A DNA stretch of 64,000 bases, from the NCBI RefSeq assembly GCF_008124715.1, contig NZ_VNHO01000013.1:1-64000 (forward strand), written 5' to 3'. The stretch is from Thermosediminibacter litoriperuensis. GTDB taxonomy: Bacteria; Bacillota; Thermosediminibacteria; Thermosediminibacterales; Thermosediminibacteraceae. The translations under genes and the position numbers were made by a program. Positions 10,021 to 20,354 of this stretch are shown one piece after another. Position 1 is the first letter of the stretch; the number at the start of each line of letters is the position of its first letter. The notes beneath the pieces were generated by a model. The model had not been told where the DNA came from, did not search any database, and was given only the letters and a program-made list of their open reading frames with translations.

Positions 10021-10055
10021 AAAATTAAAAAGGCGGCAAGGTCAACCCTGCCGCC
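10021..10055 (-). terminator. Terminator of the cobalamin/ECF operon
   Basis: Read on the minus strand, CGGCGGCAGGG pairs with CTTGCCGCC across a short loop and runs into TTTTTAATTTT. It follows the ECF S-component gene and closes the operon that begins at the B12 riboswitch. Confidence 0.85.
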
Positions 10056-10127: not shown

Positions 10128-10823
10128 TTAGGTCACTTCCATTTTGTGCCTAAACCGCTCGAGGATCTTCATAAAGCCGGGGCCAAAGAGCAGGCAAAAG
10201 GCCGCATTGCCCGCAGCGTGCAAAGTGTCAAACCAGAAACTTGCCGCACAGACGGCAATAAAGCTCTGCCAGTTTAACGGCTTGACAAAGCCGATCCAGG
10301 ACCACAGATTTAATATCCACCCAAAAAAATACCCCCATAAAAGGCAGAAAAATGCCATGCCCCATCTGCCTATACGCGGGGATAGACTTTTAACCATGCC
10401 CGCCGATGAACCTGCAAGACCCCAGGCAAACATCTGCCACGGTGTCCAGGGCCCCTGCCCCAGAAAAAAGTTTGAAACCAGGGCCGCAGTGGAACCCACC
10501 ATAAAACCGGCGGTGGGGCCGAAGACATACCCCGAAGAGATCGCTATAAACGTGGTGGGTTGTACGTTGGGCAGGGCGGCAAAAGCAATCCGGCCTGCGG
10601 CCCCTACCGCTCCCAGCACCGCTATCACCGCTATTTCTCTGGGAGACGACGTTTCAAGTTCAAACCCCAGGTACATCAAAGCAATGGCAGCAAAGATGAC
10701 GATGTAAGCCGCCACGCCCCATTCCCCGGAGATAGTCGTCTTTCCTGACATGGCAGCCGCCATAAATACCGGGATAATCCCAAAGCCGGACCAGAACAGG
10801 ATTTTTGACAGCACTTTTTTCAT
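10128..10823 (-). CDS. ECF transporter substrate-binding (S) component, probably for cobalamin
   Basis: This integral membrane protein of 231 residues has about six hydrophobic segments and an ECF S-component layout. Landmarks are ALPNVQPTTFIAISSGYVFGPTAGFMVG in mid-protein and the aromatic GPWTPWQMFAWGLAGSSAGM segment. An ATG at 10821-10823 has GGAAG six bases upstream; another in-frame ATG six bases earlier abuts the site. It is the last gene of an operon with its own T and A subunits (group I arrangement) headed by a B12 riboswitch. The CbrT-like cobalamin specificity is inferred from that context, not from a diagnostic motif. Confidence 0.85.
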   Translation of the reverse strand: MKKVLSKILFWSGFGIIPVFMAAAMSGKTTISGEWGVAAYIVIFAAIALMYLGFELETSSPREIAVIAVLGAVGAAGRIAFAALPNVQPTTFIAISSGYVFGPTAGFMVGSTAALVSNFFLGQGPWTPWQMFAWGLAGSSAGMVKSLSPRIGRWGMAFFCLLWGYFFGWILNLWSWIGFVKPLNWQSFIAVCAASFWFDTLHAAGNAAFCLLFGPGFMKILERFRHKMEVT

Positions 10824-10847
10824 AATCATCTTCCTTCATATAACTAA

Positions 10848-12515
10848 TTAATTATTTACTACCGCAGGTTTAAATACATCCAAAGCTTCTTCCGGAGTCA
10901 GGATACCGTCGGCAAAACCCCGGCACATCCTGCCTATCTGGGTGGAATAAAAAATCGAATCGGAAAGGACCTGATGCACCGGGCCGTCACATATCACCCT
11001 GCCGCCGAACAACAGGATAACTCTCGATGCGTATTTCGCTGCAAATTCTACATCATGGGTGGTCAGCACGACACTGGCACCCCGTCCGCAAAACTCTGCC
11101 AGTACCTCTCCCAAGTCTTCTTTCAGGCGATAGTCCAGCCCCTTGGTGGGTTCGTCCAAAAGCAAAAGCTTCGGACCGGTGACCAGCACCGAAGCCAGGG
11201 CCACCCTCTGGCGTTCACCGTAGCTCAAATCCCGCGGGTTTACATGCCGAAAGTCCCGTAAAGAAAGCTTTTCGATTATTTCATCAACCGCACCGGTCGA
11301 GCCGGTGCCGAAGTTTTTTAAGGTGTATAATAATTCTTCCTCCACAGTATCCTGAAAAAGATAATCGTTGGGATTCTGGGAAAGATAACCCACGCTGGGG
11401 TCCCAGGTCGTTCGATCAGGGCTGCTTTCCTGCCGACCGCCCGTCAATATCACCTGGCCGCGCCCGGGTTTCAACAAGCCCGCCATGTTCTTGAGGAGTG
11501 TGGATTTGCCCGAGCCGTTGGGTCCTATCACGGCCACCATCTCTCCGGCAGAAATCTTCAGGTTTATATCCTGAAGCGCTTCCCTGCCGTCGGGATATGT
11601 AAACCACACTCCGTCCATGCGTAAGATCGGTTCGCTTTCGTGTACTCTTTTCAAAGACTTCATAAATAAATTCCCGGAAGCCGGGTTAAAATTTTGCCTC
11701 AGCACCCTCCTTCCCTCTTTTACAGTGACGGGAATGGTATCAAAGCCCGCCTTGCCGAAGAAACTAGCTACCGGTGGAATAAAGGGGTTTTCACAAAATG
11801 CCGCCCTACGCGCCACCTGCTCGGGCGTGCCTTCAAACTTTATTCTCCCATCTTCCATGATTACAACTCTGTCGGCAAGATGAAAACATCTTTCCAGCCG
11901 CTGTTCTATCAAGATCACGGTCATGCCCATATCTTCATTCAAACGTTTTACCACATTTAAAAAATCCTCCGCCGCCACCGGGTCCAGCTGAGAAGTGGGC
12001 TCGTCAAGGATCAAAACCGAAGGCTGCATGGCCAGGACTGCAGCCAGGGCAAGTTTTTGCTTCTGGCCGCCGGACAATTTCGCCGTAAACTCTCGCCTCA
12101 AATCCGCAAGGCCCAAAAAACTCATGACTTCGGCAACCCGGCGGGCCATTTCCTGCTGTGGAAGGCCCAGGTTTTCCGGGCCGAACGCTATTTCGGCTTC
12201 CACGCTGGTCTTAACCAGCTGTTTTTCCGGATCCTGGAATACTATCCCTACCTCTCTTGCCATAGTGCGCCGGTCAATCTGCTCTATATCTTTCCCCCGA
12301 AAAAAAACGCTACCGCTGATGCGGCCGCCGGAAAATCCGGGTATCAGGCCGGCAAGCACCCGCGCCAGAGAAGATTTCCCCGAGCCGGAACCGCCAGTAA
12401 CGAGCAAAAACTCGCCCTCTTCAATGCTCATGTTTACGTCTTTCAATGCGGGCCTTGGGCTTTCCGGGTAAAAATAAGTCAGATTTTTGATTTCAAAAAC
12501 GGCCAAATGTGCCAC
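10848..12515 (-). CDS. ECF transporter ATPase, fused EcfA-EcfA' (two ATP-binding domains)
   Basis: Two complete ABC ATPase domains are fused in 555 residues. Domain 1 (about 5-245) has GGSGSGKSS, LSGGQKQKLALA and LILDEPTSQLD. Domain 2 (about 290-540) has GPNGSGKSTLL, LSYGERQRVALASVL and LLLDEPTKGLD. The two normally separate ATPases therefore come as one chain powering the adjacent T and S subunits. The start is GTG at 12513-12515, overlapping ecfT by 37 bp, with only a weak ribosome site, so translational coupling is likely. In domain 2 the signature is SYGE rather than SGGQ, common in these proteins. Confidence 0.95.
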   Translation of the reverse strand: MAHLAVFEIKNLTYFYPESPRPALKDVNMSIEEGEFLLVTGGSGSGKSSLARVLAGLIPGFSGGRISGSVFFRGKDIEQIDRRTMAREVGIVFQDPEKQLVKTSVEAEIAFGPENLGLPQQEMARRVAEVMSFLGLADLRREFTAKLSGGQKQKLALAAVLAMQPSVLILDEPTSQLDPVAAEDFLNVVKRLNEDMGMTVILIEQRLERCFHLADRVVIMEDGRIKFEGTPEQVARRAAFCENPFIPPVASFFGKAGFDTIPVTVKEGRRVLRQNFNPASGNLFMKSLKRVHESEPILRMDGVWFTYPDGREALQDINLKISAGEMVAVIGPNGSGKSTLLKNMAGLLKPGRGQVILTGGRQESSPDRTTWDPSVGYLSQNPNDYLFQDTVEEELLYTLKNFGTGSTGAVDEIIEKLSLRDFRHVNPRDLSYGERQRVALASVLVTGPKLLLLDEPTKGLDYRLKEDLGEVLAEFCGRGASVVLTTHDVEFAAKYASRVILLFGGRVICDGPVHQVLSDSIFYSTQIGRMCRGFADGILTPEEALDVFKPAVVNN

Positions 12516-13408
12516 CCCCAGCTCAAGAGTAAAGGAAAGGATAATAGAAAAATTACGGCAAAGAGGAACCCGATACCCGTACGCCCGTCAATAAGATTGC
12601 CGGCCTGCGGGTAAAATCCGAAGGTACCCAGGCCTTTGCTCCAGCCGTATACCGCCGTCACCAGAGCGATCAGGCTTGCGGCAAGGCACGCTCCGTCCCT
12701 GGGTCGCAAGTTTTCGCGAACGTAGCATGAACGCCTGCCGCTGCCAAAGGCCCTCGCGTACATGGCCTCGGCCGTCTCCATGGAATCTTCCAGAAAAGTT
12801 AAAAGCAGGATTTTCATCAATACGGCGTATTTTGACATTTTTTCTTTTAATGTTCCGGCGTTAAAATCGACTCCCCTTGCAGTCAGTGCCTCCCTTATGC
12901 CGTCAATTCGACTTACCACGGCGGGAAACATCCTGGCAGCCAGGGAAAGCACCAGCCCGGACTTAGAAGAAAAGCGGGATAACAGATCCAGTACACGATC
13001 GGGATGAATCATAAAATTGTAAAGGCAAAATATGCTCATTATTAAAAGGAGCCTTAATCCCATGACCGCACCAAATAAAATGGCCTCTAGCGAAACGTCC
13101 AACCTCCCGAAAACCGGGATATGCGGTCCCCCCCACAGGACGGTTTGTCCAGCCCTCACGGTAAGCACGTTAACAATTATGATAACAGAAGTCGCCCCCA
13201 GGCTTATTTTCAAAAAAGCCTTCCAGGCGTCGAACCCACCAACAGCTTTGACGGCCGCAACTGTAATCGATAGCAACCCCAGGAGGTATAGCGGGTGGTT
13301 GAACATCAATGCCAGCGTCAGCAAAACCGCAATATAGACGAGCGCTGACAACGGGTGAAGGCTCTGCAGAAAGAGCCCTTTTTCTCTATAAAAAAAGCGG
13401 TCCAGCAT
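12479..13408 (-). CDS. ECF transporter transmembrane (T) component
   Basis: EcfT couples ATP hydrolysis to toppling of the S component. The 309-residue protein has several N-terminal hydrophobic helices and the two cytoplasmic coupling motifs of the family, seen here as ALTARGVDF and AMYARAFGSGRR. It lies between the DUF4430 membrane protein (12 bp gap) and the fused ATPase (overlap), so one transcript is expected. The C-terminus ends with two further hydrophobic segments. Confidence 0.92.
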   Translation of the reverse strand: MLDRFFYREKGLFLQSLHPLSALVYIAVLLTLALMFNHPLYLLGLLSITVAAVKAVGGFDAWKAFLKISLGATSVIIIVNVLTVRAGQTVLWGGPHIPVFGRLDVSLEAILFGAVMGLRLLLIMSIFCLYNFMIHPDRVLDLLSRFSSKSGLVLSLAARMFPAVVSRIDGIREALTARGVDFNAGTLKEKMSKYAVLMKILLLTFLEDSMETAEAMYARAFGSGRRSCYVRENLRPRDGACLAASLIALVTAVYGWSKGLGTFGFYPQAGNLIDGRTGIGFLFAVIFLLSFPLLLSWGWHIWPFLKSKI

Positions 13409-13420
13409 GATGATTTTCCC

Positions 13421-14287
13421 CTATTCTGCCAGGCTCTCCCAGGTGGGAGGGGGGTTATTAATGCTCTCATTGTACCACCATATTATCCGGTCGCCCGGTT
13501 CGATTTTTTTCTCACTGGCCGCTACCATCGGAACTTCATCATTGACGCTGTACATCCAGCCCGCCATGCCTTTGTTCGCCTGCCCCGCTATGCTTACCAC
13601 AAAACCGTCATACCCCTTGCCGGTCTTATAATCAATCCCGGTGGAATCCAGAGCCCCCAGCGCCGTCAAACCCCACCGGTTGTTCTCTTTTACCGTCACG
13701 GTACCGGGGCCGTACAGCACCCGGCCCTCCTTTCCTACAACGGCAATTTCCACCCGGCATTCAGCATCACCAGTGGAACTCGAATCCGTTTCCTTTAGGG
13801 AATCACCGCCACCATCGGCGCCTTTTTTCTCAGGAACAACCCAGGTCGCACCATCGCGAGAAGAATTCGCTGCGTCGCCCGTGGAAGTATCTCCTTTGCC
13901 GAAAGATTCATTTTTTGTGCCGGAAGTCTTTTCCTCATTGATCTTTGATGACACATCGGAAGGCTCTACTTTTTCGATAACCTTCTTTTCTACCTTAGTG
14001 TCACCCGAACCGGCATCCGCCTCAATCTCAGGCGGTGTGTTTGTATTAGGTTTGCCTTTCTGCTCTGCAGGGCCGTCCATTGGGGCTTCGGAGGATTCCC
14101 CGCCGCCGGCCTCTGCCGGGTTTGCATTCGCATCACCGGACACTAAAGTCCTTTGATTCTCTTCAACCGCCGTTAGGGGCCCTTCTTTTGTATCGTAAAA
14201 AATATTTTTGGCGTATATTACATACCCCGCTGCTATGATAAGCACTAACGCCAGAATAATTGCCAGCTTTACGGTTTGCTTTTTCAC
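13421..14287 (-). CDS. Membrane-anchored transcobalamin-like (DUF4430) protein
   Basis: The 288-residue protein has an N-terminal hydrophobic segment (about residues 8-27) that serves as an uncleaved anchor or signal. A low-complexity Gly/Ser/Glu/Lys-rich linker (about 45-170) follows, then a C-terminal DUF4430 domain (about 175-285) with NRWGLTALGALDSTGIDY, GWMYSVNDEVP and the closing IIWWYNES. DUF4430 corresponds to the C-terminal beta domain of vertebrate transcobalamin and intrinsic factor. The GTG at 14285-14287 has GGGTGA upstream; another GTG nine bases earlier is possible. Set between the SLH protein and ECF genes, it probably passes a corrinoid from the wall to the transporter; that is inference. 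Confidence 0.8.
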   Translation of the reverse strand: MKKQTVKLAIILALVLIIAAGYVIYAKNIFYDTKEGPLTAVEENQRTLVSGDANANPAEAGGGESSEAPMDGPAEQKGKPNTNTPPEIEADAGSGDTKVEKKVIEKVEPSDVSSKINEEKTSGTKNESFGKGDTSTGDAANSSRDGATWVVPEKKGADGGGDSLKETDSSSTGDAECRVEIAVVGKEGRVLYGPGTVTVKENNRWGLTALGALDSTGIDYKTGKGYDGFVVSIAGQANKGMAGWMYSVNDEVPMVAASEKKIEPGDRIIWWYNESINNPPPTWESLAE

Positions 14288-14362
14288 TGAAATCACCCAT
14301 TAAATAAGTGTTGCAAAGCCGGGAGCGCAATAAAGAGCGCGCCCCGGCCTCTAATAAATCTA

Positions 14363-17300
14363 CTATTCCCCCAGGAAGCGGTAGATTACGACAGCGGCTT
14401 GGGCTCTGCTGGCCGCCGCTTTAGGCCGGAATGTCCCATCTTCAAAGCCGTTGATCAGCCCGCCGGCTACGGCAGCCGCCACACCGTCCCTGCTCCAGGG
14501 CGAAATCGATTTTCCGTCTTTAAAATCCGGATTTTCTCCGGAGGGAGCAAGGCCCCCCGCCCGGGCAAGGATAACCGCAAGTTCTTCTCTGGTAATGCTG
14601 CCGTCCGGCCGGAAGGTGCCATCTTCATATCCGTTCACAAGCCCCGAATCCAAAGCGGCGTATACGGCCTTCTCGTACCAGGAGCCTTCCTCTACGTCTT
14701 TGAATTGTCTTTTTTCGCCTGTCTTCGGCTCGAGGCCCAGGGCCTTTACAATCATGGTAACGAATTCAGCCCTGGTCACCGCCCGCCCCGGCTCGAAGCG
14801 GGTTCCGTCAACTCCAGTAACAATCCCGGAACCGGCCAGGGCTTCAACGGCGTCTTTGGCCCATCCGAAGGACGTGTCGCTCACATCCGCAAAGGACTTT
14901 CTGACTTCCTTTGCAAACACGGCAACTTTCGAGAAATGTTCTATCCTGGCTATAATGACGCCTTTTGCCATGTCGACCACGGCAGGGATGACCGTCCACC
15001 TGCCGCCTGCTTTATCGTACCGCGCCAGGACCAGATTTTCCGGCTTTACCAGGGGAGAGACGGCCACTCTTATTGCCAATGTTGCAGGCATTGAAAGAGA
15101 AGTTCCTTCAGGTGCAATTTCGTAAATCCCCGATAAAGCTTTGAAACCAGGGGGAATTGTACCGTCGCTCTCTTTGATCGATATTTCCAAATCCTTTTTC
15201 AATGCACCGGCCGGAACGAGGAGGGCAACTTCCTCTTTGCTGTCAACGATGGCCGCACCTATAGAAGCGGCTGTCTCTTTCTTCAAATCGACCTTGTTTT
15301 GAAGAAGCTTTTCTTTTAAATTCAAGAATTCTCCTCGTTTAAACGGTCCACTGTTTCCGGTGAGTACAACGGCTTTGTCTATTTCTTCAATGCCTATCGT
15401 TTCTTGTGCGTTTTCTTTCAGTTCGAGCAATTCTGCCAGCGCTTCTTGGGAAACCTGTAGAGCCTCCGGAATTCTTTCGTTCTGCTCTTCGAGGTCCTCG
15501 GGAATGACCCCCTCCTGCTCTGGAACCGCACTTTTATCCATCAGGTCTTTCCATGTGGGGCCGGATGAATTATAATCCGTGCTGTACCACCAGATAATCT
15601 CGTCCCCGTCGCGAATGGCTTTTTCCGATGCCGCCACCGACGGTATTTTCCCGTTGACCTTGTACATCCACCCATTCATGCCCCGGTTGGCCTGGCCTTC
15701 GATGCTCTTTACAAAACCGCCGTCACACTCGTAATCGAGGCCGGTGGCATCCAGGGCGCCCAGGGCGGTCAACCCCCACCTTCCGTCCCGGCTCACGGTG
15801 ACAGAGTCGGGGCCAAAGAGCAGCTCACCATCCTTACCCACCACCGCGATATCCACGGTGCACTCAATCTCACCGGGAACCGGCTGCGGAGATCCCGGCC
15901 CTGACCCCGGTGATCCGGTCTCGCCCTCCAGGAGGATAAATGCGTGCAGGGCTTCCGCAGCATCCAGAATATTTTTGACAGGGCCGAAACTGCCGTCGGG
16001 ATTTAACGCTTTCTGCATCATGTAGTCGACGGGGGTAAGACCCTGGCTGCTCTTCCATTCTCTTGGATCGCGCCCCAATTTCTTCAAAGTAACGATTACC
16101 TCGGCCGTATCCACCACCGGATCGTCCGGAAACGGCTGTGTGATATAGACGCTGCCGTCGGGCTGCAGCTGTTTTTTGAGATAAGCAAGGCCTTTTTCTA
16201 TCGCACTCTGGACCTCCGCATCCCCTGAAGCCGCGGGCAGGTAGGTGAGCGCCCGGATGGCCTGAGCGGTTGACATAAAGTCAGGGTAAAATGCGTCACC
16301 CCATTTTTCTCCCCAGGGACCTTTAGCGCTCTGCTTACCCAGTATGTAGCTTTTGGCTTCTTCCGCCTTTATTGCATTTATCTTCCCAGCTTCGCCCAGT
16401 GCTATATACGCCCAAAAGTCGGTGTAAACGCTGTTATCAAAACCGCTTGAAGAATGCCTCTCTTTTAAAAGATTTACCAGCTTCTCTACCCTAGCCGCAT
16501 CTTTCATAATGTTTAAAGCCAGCAGGTGCTGGGCGATGGTCTTCGTCCCCGATCTTTTCACCCAGCCGGAACCGGCGCCGGCATAATCTTCATATGCCTT
16601 TCCCAGCGATTTTAAAGCTATGAGGGTTTCGGCGGTGGCAAAGGTGCTATCATACTGGGCTTTTATGGCCGCCGTGTCAGCGTCCTGGATATCCTTTAGA
16701 TAAGCAAGGCCTGCCTCAATGGCGTTATAGACATCGCTGCCGGTATCGCGAGCACCATCAAAATACCTGAGGGCCGTAATCACCTGGGCCGTCAGGTCGG
16801 GCTCTTTTTCTTCAAAGCCGCCCCATGCGGCGCCGGCGGGATTTCCCCAGGCATCCTCATGCTGGTGTTTGAATTTTTCCACATAATTAAAAGCCTTTTG
16901 CTGGTCAATCAGGTCAAGTTTGCCCGCCTTGCCAAGAGCGGTCAGAACCATCACATCGTCATAGATGCTGTCCCCAAACCAAATCGAATCGCCGTCGGTA
17001 TTCTTCTTATCCGCAATAGCCTGAGCAAGAATTTCGATATTATCCGATTGCGGTTCTACCGCGTAAAGGGCGGTCAGCTCTTTGGCGAGGTAAACGGCAT
17101 CGAGGACTGCAGCGTTATCCGCTGCGGCGTCGGCGGAGGTGATGACTATTTCCTTGAGAGACTTACCGTCATGTACCCATTTTGACAGGTCTTCACCGGC
17201 GTCGGCCAGTGCCTCTACACAGCGATAGTCGAAGTTAAACCCCTGGGCGTCATAAGCCAGGCTTCCACTCATATAGCGGTCTTTAAAATATTCGACCGCC

Positions 17301-17773
17301 CTATCGATGGCCTTCTGCACCCGCCCGGAAATATCCCCCTCCGGCAGGTCGCCTTTCACCATCGCCAGCGCCTGCAGGGGGGCCTTGGTGCCGTATTCGT
17401 TGGCATAAGGGCCAAAACTGCCGTCGGCGTTCTGCGTGGCCAGAATGTATGTAACGAGACTGTTTTGATTGCCGAGGAGGTCCGCCGACTTTCGTATCTC
17501 CTCCTTCAAGCTTAAATTATTCCTGGTCCACTTTTGGGACGCCAGATTTTCCCCTGCCAGTGTGAGAACGTACGCGGTGTAGCCGTCGATTTTTTCCCCG
17601 GATTTGAATTTGTCGTTAATAAACTCCACGGCCTTGGCGGCCAGCTGATCGGAAGTATAACTTCCCGAGGCAGCCCGGGCTGCAGTCAGAACCTGCCCAT
17701 CCACAGGAATGCTCAATAAAAGACAAAAGACCAGAATCAGCGATACCAGTCGTTTTTTGATTTTACAGTGCAT
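14363..17773 (-). CDS. SLH-anchored transcobalamin-like surface protein (alpha/alpha repeats + DUF4430 + SLH x3)
   Basis: This 1136-residue exported protein is the first gene after the B12 riboswitch. A signal peptide (1 to about 34) is followed by alpha/alpha-toroid repeats of the prenyltransferase/cobalamin-binding type (about 40-615), with recurring AYLKxxQxxDGS-like units. A Gly/Pro-rich hinge (about 620-634) leads to a DUF4430 domain (about 635-735; GRWGLTALGALDATGLDY, GWMYKVNGKIP, IIWWYS). Next come a helical segment and a ZU5-like beta domain (about 840-945), then three SLH repeats (about 950-1136) that would bind wall polymer. An alpha barrel plus DUF4430 is the two-domain plan of intrinsic factor and transcobalamin. 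The likely role is corrinoid capture at the cell surface. Confidence 0.88.
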   Translation of the reverse strand: MHCKIKKRLVSLILVFCLLLSIPVDGQVLTAARAASGSYTSDQLAAKAVEFINDKFKSGEKIDGYTAYVLTLAGENLASQKWTRNNLSLKEEIRKSADLLGNQNSLVTYILATQNADGSFGPYANEYGTKAPLQALAMVKGDLPEGDISGRVQKAIDRAVEYFKDRYMSGSLAYDAQGFNFDYRCVEALADAGEDLSKWVHDGKSLKEIVITSADAAADNAAVLDAVYLAKELTALYAVEPQSDNIEILAQAIADKKNTDGDSIWFGDSIYDDVMVLTALGKAGKLDLIDQQKAFNYVEKFKHQHEDAWGNPAGAAWGGFEEKEPDLTAQVITALRYFDGARDTGSDVYNAIEAGLAYLKDIQDADTAAIKAQYDSTFATAETLIALKSLGKAYEDYAGAGSGWVKRSGTKTIAQHLLALNIMKDAARVEKLVNLLKERHSSSGFDNSVYTDFWAYIALGEAGKINAIKAEEAKSYILGKQSAKGPWGEKWGDAFYPDFMSTAQAIRALTYLPAASGDAEVQSAIEKGLAYLKKQLQPDGSVYITQPFPDDPVVDTAEVIVTLKKLGRDPREWKSSQGLTPVDYMMQKALNPDGSFGPVKNILDAAEALHAFILLEGETGSPGSGPGSPQPVPGEIECTVDIAVVGKDGELLFGPDSVTVSRDGRWGLTALGALDATGLDYECDGGFVKSIEGQANRGMNGWMYKVNGKIPSVAASEKAIRDGDEIIWWYSTDYNSSGPTWKDLMDKSAVPEQEGVIPEDLEEQNERIPEALQVSQEALAELLELKENAQETIGIEEIDKAVVLTGNSGPFKRGEFLNLKEKLLQNKVDLKKETAASIGAAIVDSKEEVALLVPAGALKKDLEISIKESDGTIPPGFKALSGIYEIAPEGTSLSMPATLAIRVAVSPLVKPENLVLARYDKAGGRWTVIPAVVDMAKGVIIARIEHFSKVAVFAKEVRKSFADVSDTSFGWAKDAVEALAGSGIVTGVDGTRFEPGRAVTRAEFVTMIVKALGLEPKTGEKRQFKDVEEGSWYEKAVYAALDSGLVNGYEDGTFRPDGSITREELAVILARAGGLAPSGENPDFKDGKSISPWSRDGVAAAVAGGLINGFEDGTFRPKAAASRAQAAVVIYRFLGE

Positions 17774-17930
17774 GATCTCATCCCTTCCACCGAGTATTCT
17801 TTTTTTAGTGTAAAAAGTGAGAATACCTGTTGGTGCCGCTAGAAATTATTGCAATATAAAAAACGGCTCATTCCAACACCTCCCCTTTAGGGCTCCCCTC
17901 AGGGGGGTTGAAACACGCCGCCGCTGAAGT

Positions 17931-17964
17931 AAAATAAAAACCCTGGCTCCAACGTAAACCAGGG
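17931..17964 (-). terminator. Terminator of the B12 riboswitch expression platform
   Basis: On the minus strand CCCTGG (17964-17959) pairs with CCAGGG (17946-17941) and is followed by TTTTTATTTT. It lies just downstream of the aptamer and about 160 bp before the SLH gene, as expected for premature termination when cobalamin is bound. Confidence 0.75.
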
Positions 17965-17984
17965 ATAAGCTGTTTCCCCATCCT

Positions 17985-18165
17985 GCGTAGGGAGCACCAG
18001 TTCGACGGCAAGCACCAGGTATCCTGGCTCGGATTCACCGCTCCCCCACGCCTTCCCGGGTATTCCCAGTGGCATATTGTAGGGTCGCTCCTCCTCACAG
18101 TGGCGCGGACCGCGCCGGAATTTCACCGGCTTCCCATGGTTGCCTGTCCTATTCAATTTGCTTTG
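17985..18165 (-). ncRNA. Cobalamin (B12) riboswitch aptamer
   Basis: Canonical elements appear in order on the minus strand: GGAAGCCGGTGAAATTCCGG (around 18138-18119), the GCGGTCCGCGCCACTGTGA core just after it, and the B12 box region GAGCCAGGATACCTGG near 18030-18015. Together they match the B12 element consensus. It sits 210-390 bp upstream of the SLH/DUF4430 gene with a terminator between, and no other gene intervenes, so it controls the whole ECF operon and predicts repression by adenosylcobalamin. Confidence 0.95.
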
Positions 18166-18252
18166 TCATTTTTAATAATATATTAAATATTCCGGTTTGT
18201 CAATAACTTGTTTCTTCTGCCATGTAGATGAGCTCGAAAAAACTGACGCCCA

Positions 18253-19200
18253 TTACTTTCTGATAGAATATGCCATCCTTCTATACGTATGCCGTTTCCC
18301 TCTTATGGCAATCGACAAAGCCATAATATTTTCGGGGAGGGCTATGCCTGAGTAGCCCGCATCGCCTATGTGCTGTATATCCACACCGGCCATCTTGGAC
18401 ATGAGGGCCATCTGTTCTACAACGTCGGCACCGGCCCCTTCCTGGGATGTGCCGATGGCGGTCATGGCCAGAGCCCCGGCCTGGTGAATCGCCTCGACCT
18501 GGCGCTTTGCCAGTTCCAGGTCCATACCAGGCACGGTCCCGGGCGCGGGAATCAGGACCACATCTGCCCCCGCTTTGGCGAAATCTTTCAGGACCTCCGG
18601 ATCGTAGATATTTTCTCCGCCGGCGCAATGCATCTTGCCAGCTATTATGATAACGCGGTCCACCAATATTTCGGACGCCGTCTCGATGCCCTTAAGTATC
18701 CCGCCATCGGTTACGCCGGTGTTGGGGTTGCCGGTAATTACAATGTAGTCGAACCCCATTTCCAAAGCCCTTCTCAGGTTCGCCTCGTCCAGCTTCCTGC
18801 CAGCAGGGTAATCCATGCCATCCGGCACCGGTTCCAGATTTACGCCGATGAATCTGCCCACAATGTCTTTGACTTTTTTGGCATAACCAGGCGTCCTGCC
18901 GTTTTCAAAAGACCTGCGGGATACCTCCTCGAAGGCGGCAGCCCCCCGATTCAGGTCGATGCCATTATCGTCTATGCCGAAGATAAAAGGAGCTTTTAGA
19001 TCTAAAAAATTGAGTGTGACCATGTCGGCTCCGCAGGCTGCCGCCAGTTCCGGGTTGCTTACGCCATATATAAGGGGAGGGACGGCAACGATCGTCTCCG
19101 CCATTACCGTCCTGCCCTCGGAAGCTTTAATGCAGGCCAGGATTTCCGTCTTATCCATGTTTATTACATCGTTAAAGCCCAATTCAAAAATCCTCTTCAC
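18253..19200 (-). CDS. PEP-phosphonomutase-like TIM-barrel protein of PTS operons (function unknown)
   Basis: The 315-residue protein resembles a family found beside glucose-type PTS genes and often annotated as PEP phosphonomutase or HAD-like hydrolase (I recall a DUF7916 label). Visible features are MDKTEILACIKASEGRTVMA near the N-terminus, an acid-rich FIFGIDDNGIDLN loop, YIVITGNPNTGVTDGG, and ALAMTAIGTSQEGAGADVVEQ, all consistent with a TIM barrel binding a phosphate or metal. A GTG at 19198-19200 with AGGTGG six bases upstream is preferred to a TTG 15 bases earlier. It follows EIIA by about 20 bp. The substrate is unknown. Confidence 0.7.
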   Translation of the reverse strand: MKRIFELGFNDVINMDKTEILACIKASEGRTVMAETIVAVPPLIYGVSNPELAAACGADMVTLNFLDLKAPFIFGIDDNGIDLNRGAAAFEEVSRRSFENGRTPGYAKKVKDIVGRFIGVNLEPVPDGMDYPAGRKLDEANLRRALEMGFDYIVITGNPNTGVTDGGILKGIETASEILVDRVIIIAGKMHCAGGENIYDPEVLKDFAKAGADVVLIPAPGTVPGMDLELAKRQVEAIHQAGALAMTAIGTSQEGAGADVVEQMALMSKMAGVDIQHIGDAGYSGIALPENIMALSIAIRGKRHTYRRMAYSIRK

Positions 19201-19221
19201 TTCATACCACCTCAAAACCCA

Positions 19222-19722: not shown

Positions 19723-19819
19723 CGGAAATCCTCCTTATACGCGACTGTGAATTTTTGAGGCAGGCAGGCAGGAAAGAATCCGCCTTCCCTGCCGCCAAAT
19801 CGATCTTTCTTTAATCATA

Positions 19820-20354
19820 TCACAGCAATTTCTTTATTTCCTCCACAATTATTTCCGCTTCTGTACCGACGACTACCTGCAGGTTTCCTCCTCCCAGTTT
19901 CATTACACCCGTCGCCCCGGCCTGTTTGAGCACTTCTTCGATGGGAATAAGCATCAGGGGGCGTGTGGCAAGACCGTAATTTAATACGTAATCTATCAGA
20001 CCGGCGGAAAATCCGAACCCGTGTAATGGGCACGAAGCGCTTACCACCGAAAAAGCCACGAAAATCAGGCAGTTTTATGTCCTTATACTTATTGTAAAGA
20101 TGAGCCGCTACGTAATACCCCACCCCGCCGGCGAGAGCTGCAGCTCCGGCGCCACCGGCAAGTCCCATGGAAACACCCAGGGCAAAAACGAGGGGCAGGT
20201 TGTCGAAAATGGCCTTGCCGCCGGCCATTATAACCGGTACATTGAGCACATCTTCTGCACCCAACCTTAAAAGCAGGGCCGCTGCAGGCATCACCGCCAC
20301 CGGTGTCATCAAGGCTCTGCCCAGTTTCTGAAGGCTTCCCAGTCTACCCTTCAT
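19820..20354 (-). pseudogene. Gutted PTS glucose/N-acetylglucosamine-type EIICB gene
   Basis: The first ~108 codons encode a normal EIIC N-terminus (LGRALMTPVAVMPAAALLLRLG through GFFGGKRFVPI). The frame then jumps: the next stretch, read in another frame from about 20059, is the EIIC C-terminal segment GFSAGLIDYVLNYGLATRP. This runs directly into the end of an EIIB domain (EEVLKQAGATGVMKLGGG). About 200 residues of EIIC, the start of EIIB and its phosphorylatable Cys are missing. Two deletions, one out of frame, explain this. The product cannot be a functional permease. Confidence 0.9.

Follow-up and report, generated by a model that had tools for sequence, protein, structure and literature searches.

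A B12-riboswitch operon of Thermosediminibacter litoriperuensis encodes a wall-anchored protein resembling transcobalamin beside a predicted corrinoid transporter of the ECF-CbrT type

An operon for a predicted corrinoid uptake system was found in the genome of Thermosediminibacter litoriperuensis, a heat-loving bacterium of the Clostridia type (NCBI RefSeq assembly GCF_008124715.1), within the first 64,000 nucleotides of contig NZ_VNHO01000013.1, herein referred to as the window. The operon is located behind a cobalamin (B12) riboswitch and encodes two surface proteins with a DUF4430 domain, followed by an energy-coupling factor (ECF) transporter with a CbrT-type substrate-binding (S) component. 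The larger surface protein carries a wall anchor and resembles the vertebrate B12 carriers in fold and domain order, common descent being a separate matter. The reading proposed here is that these surface proteins capture corrinoids in service of the ECF-CbrT importer, with a probability of roughly 0.78. Little has been described of how a large and scarce cofactor passes through a thick wall of the Gram-positive type to an ECF importer that has no classical binding protein. The conserved, riboswitch-marked set of surface proteins gives an answer to this problem that can be put directly to the test in thermophiles and acetogens that grow in culture, among them Moorella, Thermovorax, and Desulfofundulus.

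The system forms a single transcription unit on the minus strand, from approximately position 18203 to position 10032 of the window, and all of its features given below lie on this strand. A sigma-70-like promoter (TTGACA-17-TATTAT, 18175..18203), agreeing with the consensus at 11 of 12 positions, is located 1 nt upstream of the match to the riboswitch model. The cobalamin riboswitch (17997..18174) is the sole Rfam match in the window: RF00174 scored 100 bits (E 8e-24; gathering cut-off 31.5) at 18018-18135, and a riboswitch model built in this analysis, R1, widened this match to 17997-18174 with a full-length score of 134.8 bits. The riboswitch leader ends in an intrinsic terminator, the expression platform (17941..17964), composed of a 9-bp stem followed by TTTTTATTTT; the stem recurs in the predicted fold. 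Five genes follow, encoding the 1136-residue wall protein, a 291-residue DUF4430 protein, EcfT, a fused EcfA, and the S component EcfS. The gaps between them are 66, 12, and 18 nt in this order, the open reading frames for EcfT and EcfA overlap by 37 nt, and a second intrinsic terminator (10032..10055; 10-bp stem, TTTTTAATTT) is located 3' of the last gene. An earlier note on this DNA had claimed one operon behind a B12 riboswitch, and this observation is confirmed, with the promoter and both terminators located.

All the components of an ECF transporter are encoded by the last three genes, as the earlier note had also stated. The membrane subunit EcfT (12479..13408) belongs to the CbiQ family (PF02361, 45.6 bits). 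The ATPase is a fused double protein, EcfA-EcfA' (10848..12515), having two ABC_tran domains and matching the ECF_ATPase equivalog models TIGR04520 and TIGR04521 above cut-off. The predicted corrinoid-binding membrane subunit, the S component (10128..10829), scored slightly below the cut-off of the Pfam family ECF_trnsprt (30.0 vs 30.7 bits). Compared alone with the PDB sequences, it had one match, 6fnp_A (ECF-CbrT), with E 2e-13. A profile of 42 family members retrieved the same chain with E 2.2e-30, the second-best S component having E 0.03. This structure, 6FNP, represents ECF-CbrT of Lactobacillus delbrueckii, which imports cobalamin and cobinamide and is not inhibited by hemin (PMC5997447). 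Because the S component matches CbrT and the operon has a B12 riboswitch, the substrate of the importer is very likely a corrinoid. A cobalt-only importer (CbiMNQO) was rejected: EcfT is of the CbiQ family, yet the S component matches CbrT and not CbiM. No second copy of the CbrT-type S component was found in a search of the host genome. The S components of the L. delbrueckii transporter and the window system are homologous. However, the former is a group II transporter, whose ECF module is shared and for which no toroid or SLH protein has been described, whereas the latter has an operon to itself, complete with EcfT, a fused EcfA, a riboswitch, and the wall protein.

The same arrangement was found in other genomes. 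DUF4430 is present in 51 of 149 relatives, usually in two adjoining genes, one long and one short. The census covered as much as 20 kb of sequence around each DUF4430 cluster, and a riboswitch was counted when located within 1 kb upstream of the first DUF4430 gene. Such riboswitches were found in 42 of the 57 clusters with enough upstream sequence, at a median distance of 190 nt. EcfT, EcfA, and CbrT-type EcfS were found on the same strand in 43 of 62 clusters. Since most of the relatives scanned have only one to ten B12 riboswitches per genome, the association of riboswitch and DUF4430 is far beyond chance. The order of riboswitch, SLH/toroid/DUF4430 protein, DUF4430 protein, EcfT, EcfA, and EcfS is found again in many families of the phylum, and this recurrence rules out a chance grouping of the genes. 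A second set, for which similarity to the toroid/DUF4430 region was the sole criterion of selection, contained 72 loci, some on contigs in common with the first set. It includes Thermovorax subterraneus, several Moorella, Desulfofundulus, Desulfoscipio, Desulfovirgula, Pelotomaculum, and Caldalkalibacillus. A riboswitch was found in 42 of the 44 loci searched in this set, and the remaining two start at a contig edge. Thus, the co-occurrence that the earlier note had expected from a genome survey was borne out, with most DUF4430 clusters lying immediately after a B12 riboswitch and next to ECF genes.

Three variants of these loci were also observed. At nine loci, two or three B12 riboswitches stand in tandem before the same operon. 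At two loci (in G086 and G124), DUF4430 and a CbrT-type S component occur, as in lactobacilli, in genomes that yielded no B12 riboswitch. At four further loci (in G021 and G051), several giant DUF4430 proteins of 1000-2200 residues are encoded, some near B12 riboswitches, and the ECF genes are not alongside.

The exported wall protein (14363..17773) consists of a signal peptide, two α6/α6 toroids, a DUF4430 domain, a spacer, and three SLH repeats, according to the open reading frame list, Pfam, and AlphaFold. Both marks of a wall-anchored protein were found, a hydrophobic signal segment (residues 10-28) and three SLH stretches (14378..14896; PF00395, 138.8 bits). In addition to SLH and DUF4430, the Pfam scan returned only a weak match to SQHop_cyclase_C. 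In the AlphaFold model of residues 38-750 (47 sequences), with a mean predicted local distance difference test (pLDDT) score of 94.7, 24 helices form two complete α6/α6 toroids and are followed by a β domain. Toroid 1 (residues 41-299, 12 helices; 16877..17653) is missing from single-toroid relatives by alignment. Toroid 2 (residues 325-618, 12 helices; 15920..16801) is common to the single-toroid members and similar to the α domain of transcobalamin, as indicated by alignment, AlphaFold, and Foldseek. The DUF4430 domain (residues 668-731; 15581..15772; PF14478, 58.4 bits) is similar to the transcobalamin β domain. The composition described in the earlier note, an exported 1136-residue protein with an α/α-toroid, DUF4430, and three SLH repeats, was found in full, except that the toroid is not one but two.

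DUF4430 is the C-terminal domain of the vertebrate TCN proteins (PMC4350170). In transcobalamin, intrinsic factor, and haptocorrin, as in the wall protein, an α6/α6 barrel precedes a β domain of the DUF4430 type, and these carriers are the best structural matches. In a Foldseek search of the PDB with the model of residues 38-750, haptocorrin and transcobalamin took the first nine places, and intrinsic factor came at rank 12. In many relatives, Moorella thermoacetica among them, DUF4430 is preceded by one toroid only, which is exactly the architecture of the vertebrate carriers. In the AlphaFold model of one such relative (L112; pLDDT 91.4), 12 helices forming an α6/α6 barrel precede the β domain. 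Each of the top 15 Foldseek matches of this model was one of these three vertebrate carriers (E 3e-9 to 2e-7), and proteins of another kind began only at 2e-4. The β domain of human transcobalamin (5no0) superposed on it with a TM-score of 0.65 and a root-mean-square deviation of 3.3 Å. The domain order of intrinsic factor and transcobalamin that the earlier note had recognized is therefore supported by the structure search of the toroid-DUF4430 unit, although the whole-chain TM-scores lie below 0.5. Of the outcomes that the note had named as refuting its interpretation, the two accessible to computation, a missing structural match and a domain pair mostly away from B12 riboswitches and transporters, were both not seen. 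Unlike the vertebrate carriers, the wall protein has no detectable full-length sequence similarity to them and no such disulphides, and it has an extra toroid, an SLH anchor, and a place in a riboswitch-controlled bacterial operon.

Host metabolism bears on the use of such a system. The host genome (a draft, 98.9% complete) contains ten B12-binding domains; neither CbiD nor CbiC was found in it. Two further B12-riboswitch operons were found. The first of these (G000:C7:56181 onward, L170) encodes a BtuF-like protein, FecCD, CobU, a GHMP kinase, an aminotransferase, CbiB, and CobS, a set for corrinoid salvage. The other (G000:C2:76953; L169:5589-6813) encodes an ECF S component (PF12822) and an AIR-synthase-like protein and resembles a locus for α-ribazole salvage; we take this pair to be, probably, CblT and CblS. 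Because of the ten B12-binding domains, the CbiD and CbiC that were not found, and the salvage operon with BtuF, CobU, CbiB, and CobS, the host probably must import corrinoids, and it looks like a corrinoid salvager. In a close relative of the same genus (G001), CbiD is present, pointing either to a recent loss of corrin synthesis in the host or to an assembly gap.

The salvage genes also bear on which corrinoid is preferred. The system could be tuned to cobinamide or other corrinoids, such as cobamides with other lower ligands or precursors, and not to cobalamin. In favor of such tuning, CobU, CbiB, and CobS constitute a kit for completing cobinamide in a genome where CbiC and CbiD were not found. 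Additionally, cobinamide is taken up by ECF-CbrT as well (PMC5997447), and the carrier that fits best by fold, haptocorrin, shows lower selectivity than transcobalamin (PMC5599065). Nothing direct speaks against this preference, which would operate within the same mechanism, but the finished cofactor is what this family of riboswitches senses. Tuning away from cobalamin is considered rather unlikely.

Several results weigh against the wall protein being a corrinoid carrier for CbrT. Over the whole chain, the single-toroid homologue reaches TM-scores of 0.38-0.49 to the vertebrate carriers, and the window protein, depending on the target, 0.33-0.37. Whole-chain deviations are 18-25 Å, and the closed sandwich around the ligand is not displayed in the ligand-free models. 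The low whole-chain scores can be attributed to the two domains being placed differently in the ligand-free model. No transcobalamin chain in the PDB was retrieved by the sequence profiles of DUF4430 or of the toroid up to E 10, and therefore the link to transcobalamin is structural. Likewise, no match to the eukaryotic cobalamin-binding family was found in the Pfam scan of the wall protein or in the PDB profile searches. The disulphides of the vertebrate α domain cannot form, the toroids having one cysteine (185). Taken by itself, a toroid also resembles terpene cyclases and prenyltransferases. At the genome level, the BtuF-type importer means that the DUF4430/CbrT system is not the sole uptake route. 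BtuFCD is, like the window system, a corrinoid importer behind a B12 riboswitch, but it has unrelated folds and is based on a periplasmic binding protein. Finally, the system does not track the loss of corrin synthesis: CbiD was found in 22 of 51 carriers of the system and 51 of 98 non-carriers, and a link to the loss of de novo synthesis was rejected for this lack of association.

In a different assignment, ECF-CbrT imports corrinoids, but the SLH/toroid/DUF4430 protein, although regulated together with it, would serve at the surface for something else, such as S-layer building, adhesion, or action on polysaccharides or terpenoids. SLH proteins are frequently structural, and toroids also occur in terpene cyclases, prenyltransferases, and glycosidases, which appear from Foldseek rank 16 on. 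However, the toroid-DUF4430 unit matches the B12 carriers ahead of any enzyme, and the DxDD motif of cyclases and the thioester motif are absent, so that an enzymatic reading of the toroid as a terpene cyclase or thioester domain was rejected. Moreover, the gene for the wall protein stands immediately behind the B12 riboswitch in most lineages, and DUF4430 accompanies CbrT in lactobacilli even where neither SLH nor a toroid is present. Another job for the wall protein is thus regarded as improbable, and corrinoid capture is preferred.

The second surface protein (13421..14296) has 291 residues. It is composed of an N-terminal transmembrane segment (residues 11-29), a low-complexity linker of approximately 150 residues rich in Gly, Glu, Ser, and Lys, and a C-terminal DUF4430 domain (residues 209-276; 13469..13672; 68 bits). 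This composition agrees with its earlier description as a membrane-anchored DUF4430 protein. No DUF4430 domain beyond those of the two surface proteins was found in a domain search of the host genome. The short DUF4430 proteins of eleven loci contain about 180 unexplained residues after DUF4430.

Small DUF4430 proteins beside CbrT are also found in lactobacilli. On a plasmid of Lactiplantibacillus (L. plantarum), a small DUF4430 gene is located directly before the gene for the S component and after nrdJ and an adenosyltransferase gene. DUF4430 and CbrT of lactobacilli thus adjoin a B12-dependent ribonucleotide reductase and an adenosyltransferase, with no SLH or toroid. The L. delbrueckii cluster was described as nrdJ-cbrS-cbrT-pduO, where cbrT adjoins cbrS (PMC5997447), and we infer that cbrS encodes a DUF4430 protein. 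For L. rhamnosus, one paper lists an "additional lipoprotein component of putative cobalamin ECF transporter" and, as a separate entry, a DUF4430 protein encoded beside the rtpR reductase gene (PMC9963975). This lipoprotein component, known by annotation only, is probably of the same kind as the short DUF4430 protein, being small and having no toroid or wall anchor. A DUF4430 partner of CbrT therefore seems to be already known at the annotation level. A further small bacterial domain, Ruminococcus gnavus RUMGNA_00854 (PDB 3U7Z, "putative metal binding protein"), matches DUF4430 by fold and, weakly, by profile.

Human transcobalamin offers a precedent, by analogy, for a lone DUF4430 domain and for a hand-off between separate halves. 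Its β domain alone binds cyanocobalamin and cobinamide, and its α and β halves, when expressed separately, assemble only with cobalamin (PMC5599065). At five loci, the toroid and DUF4430 are found on separate proteins of one operon (a toroid-SLH protein of approximately 500 residues, and DUF4430-SLH or DUF4430 alone), and this fits halves that close over the ligand in trans.

These observations suggest the following course of uptake. At low intracellular cobalamin, the riboswitch would permit transcription past the terminator, and the operon would be expressed. The SLH-held wall protein would trap cobalamin or cobinamide between toroid 2 and DUF4430, as the α and β domains of transcobalamin and intrinsic factor do, and toroid 1, the extra one, may have a role of its own. 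The tethered DUF4430 domain, comparable to a free transcobalamin β domain and reaching into the wall on its linker, would then take over the corrinoid. It would give the corrinoid to the CbrT-type S component, and the EcfT/EcfA motor would drive import. The order of this relay, from wall protein to tethered DUF4430 to CbrT, is favored with modest confidence. Alternatively, the two surface proteins may be independent receptors, each delivering directly to the S component. This would suit the lactobacilli, which have only the short DUF4430 protein, and one locus type (L091) having the short protein and ECF genes with no toroid protein. Against it, the genes for the wall and tethered proteins adjoin and are kept together in most loci, and the split toroid/DUF4430 versions exist; direct delivery by each is judged the less probable arrangement, and an unlikely one.

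The novel part of the proposed relay appears to be the wall-anchored capture protein with the transcobalamin fold, through which a wall anchor and this fold are joined to an ECF-CbrT importer. No description of the wall-anchored toroid version was found in the open-access literature searched. The claim of the earlier note that such a wall relay is little described therefore appears to hold for the capture protein, but not for DUF4430 beside CbrT, which is apparently already annotated in lactobacilli. Corrinoid capture by this protein would extend the fold of transcobalamin and intrinsic factor to bacterial uptake and provide a lead on the origin of the animal B12 carriers. The predicted shape of the wall protein and the B12-type importer beside it suggest that some bacteria may catch B12 on their surface much as human blood and gut do. 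In a stronger form, these proteins would be true bacterial transcobalamins: wall-anchored and corrinoid-sandwiching, with the whole two-domain unit sharing common descent with the vertebrate carriers, and passing the vitamin through β-domain exchange to the tethered DUF4430 and on to ECF-CbrT. This form is put forward tentatively, with the odds somewhat against it. If common descent were true, the animal B12 carriers would descend from a bacterial uptake protein or be its sisters.

Two neighboring features were observed upstream of the operon on the minus strand. A DUF7916 protein (391 bits) is encoded at 18253-19215, directly upstream of the riboswitch promoter. The segment at 19815-20354 encodes the N-terminal part of a protein similar to EIIC of the phosphotransferase system; it ends early and resembles a broken remnant beside a gene of the EIIA type.

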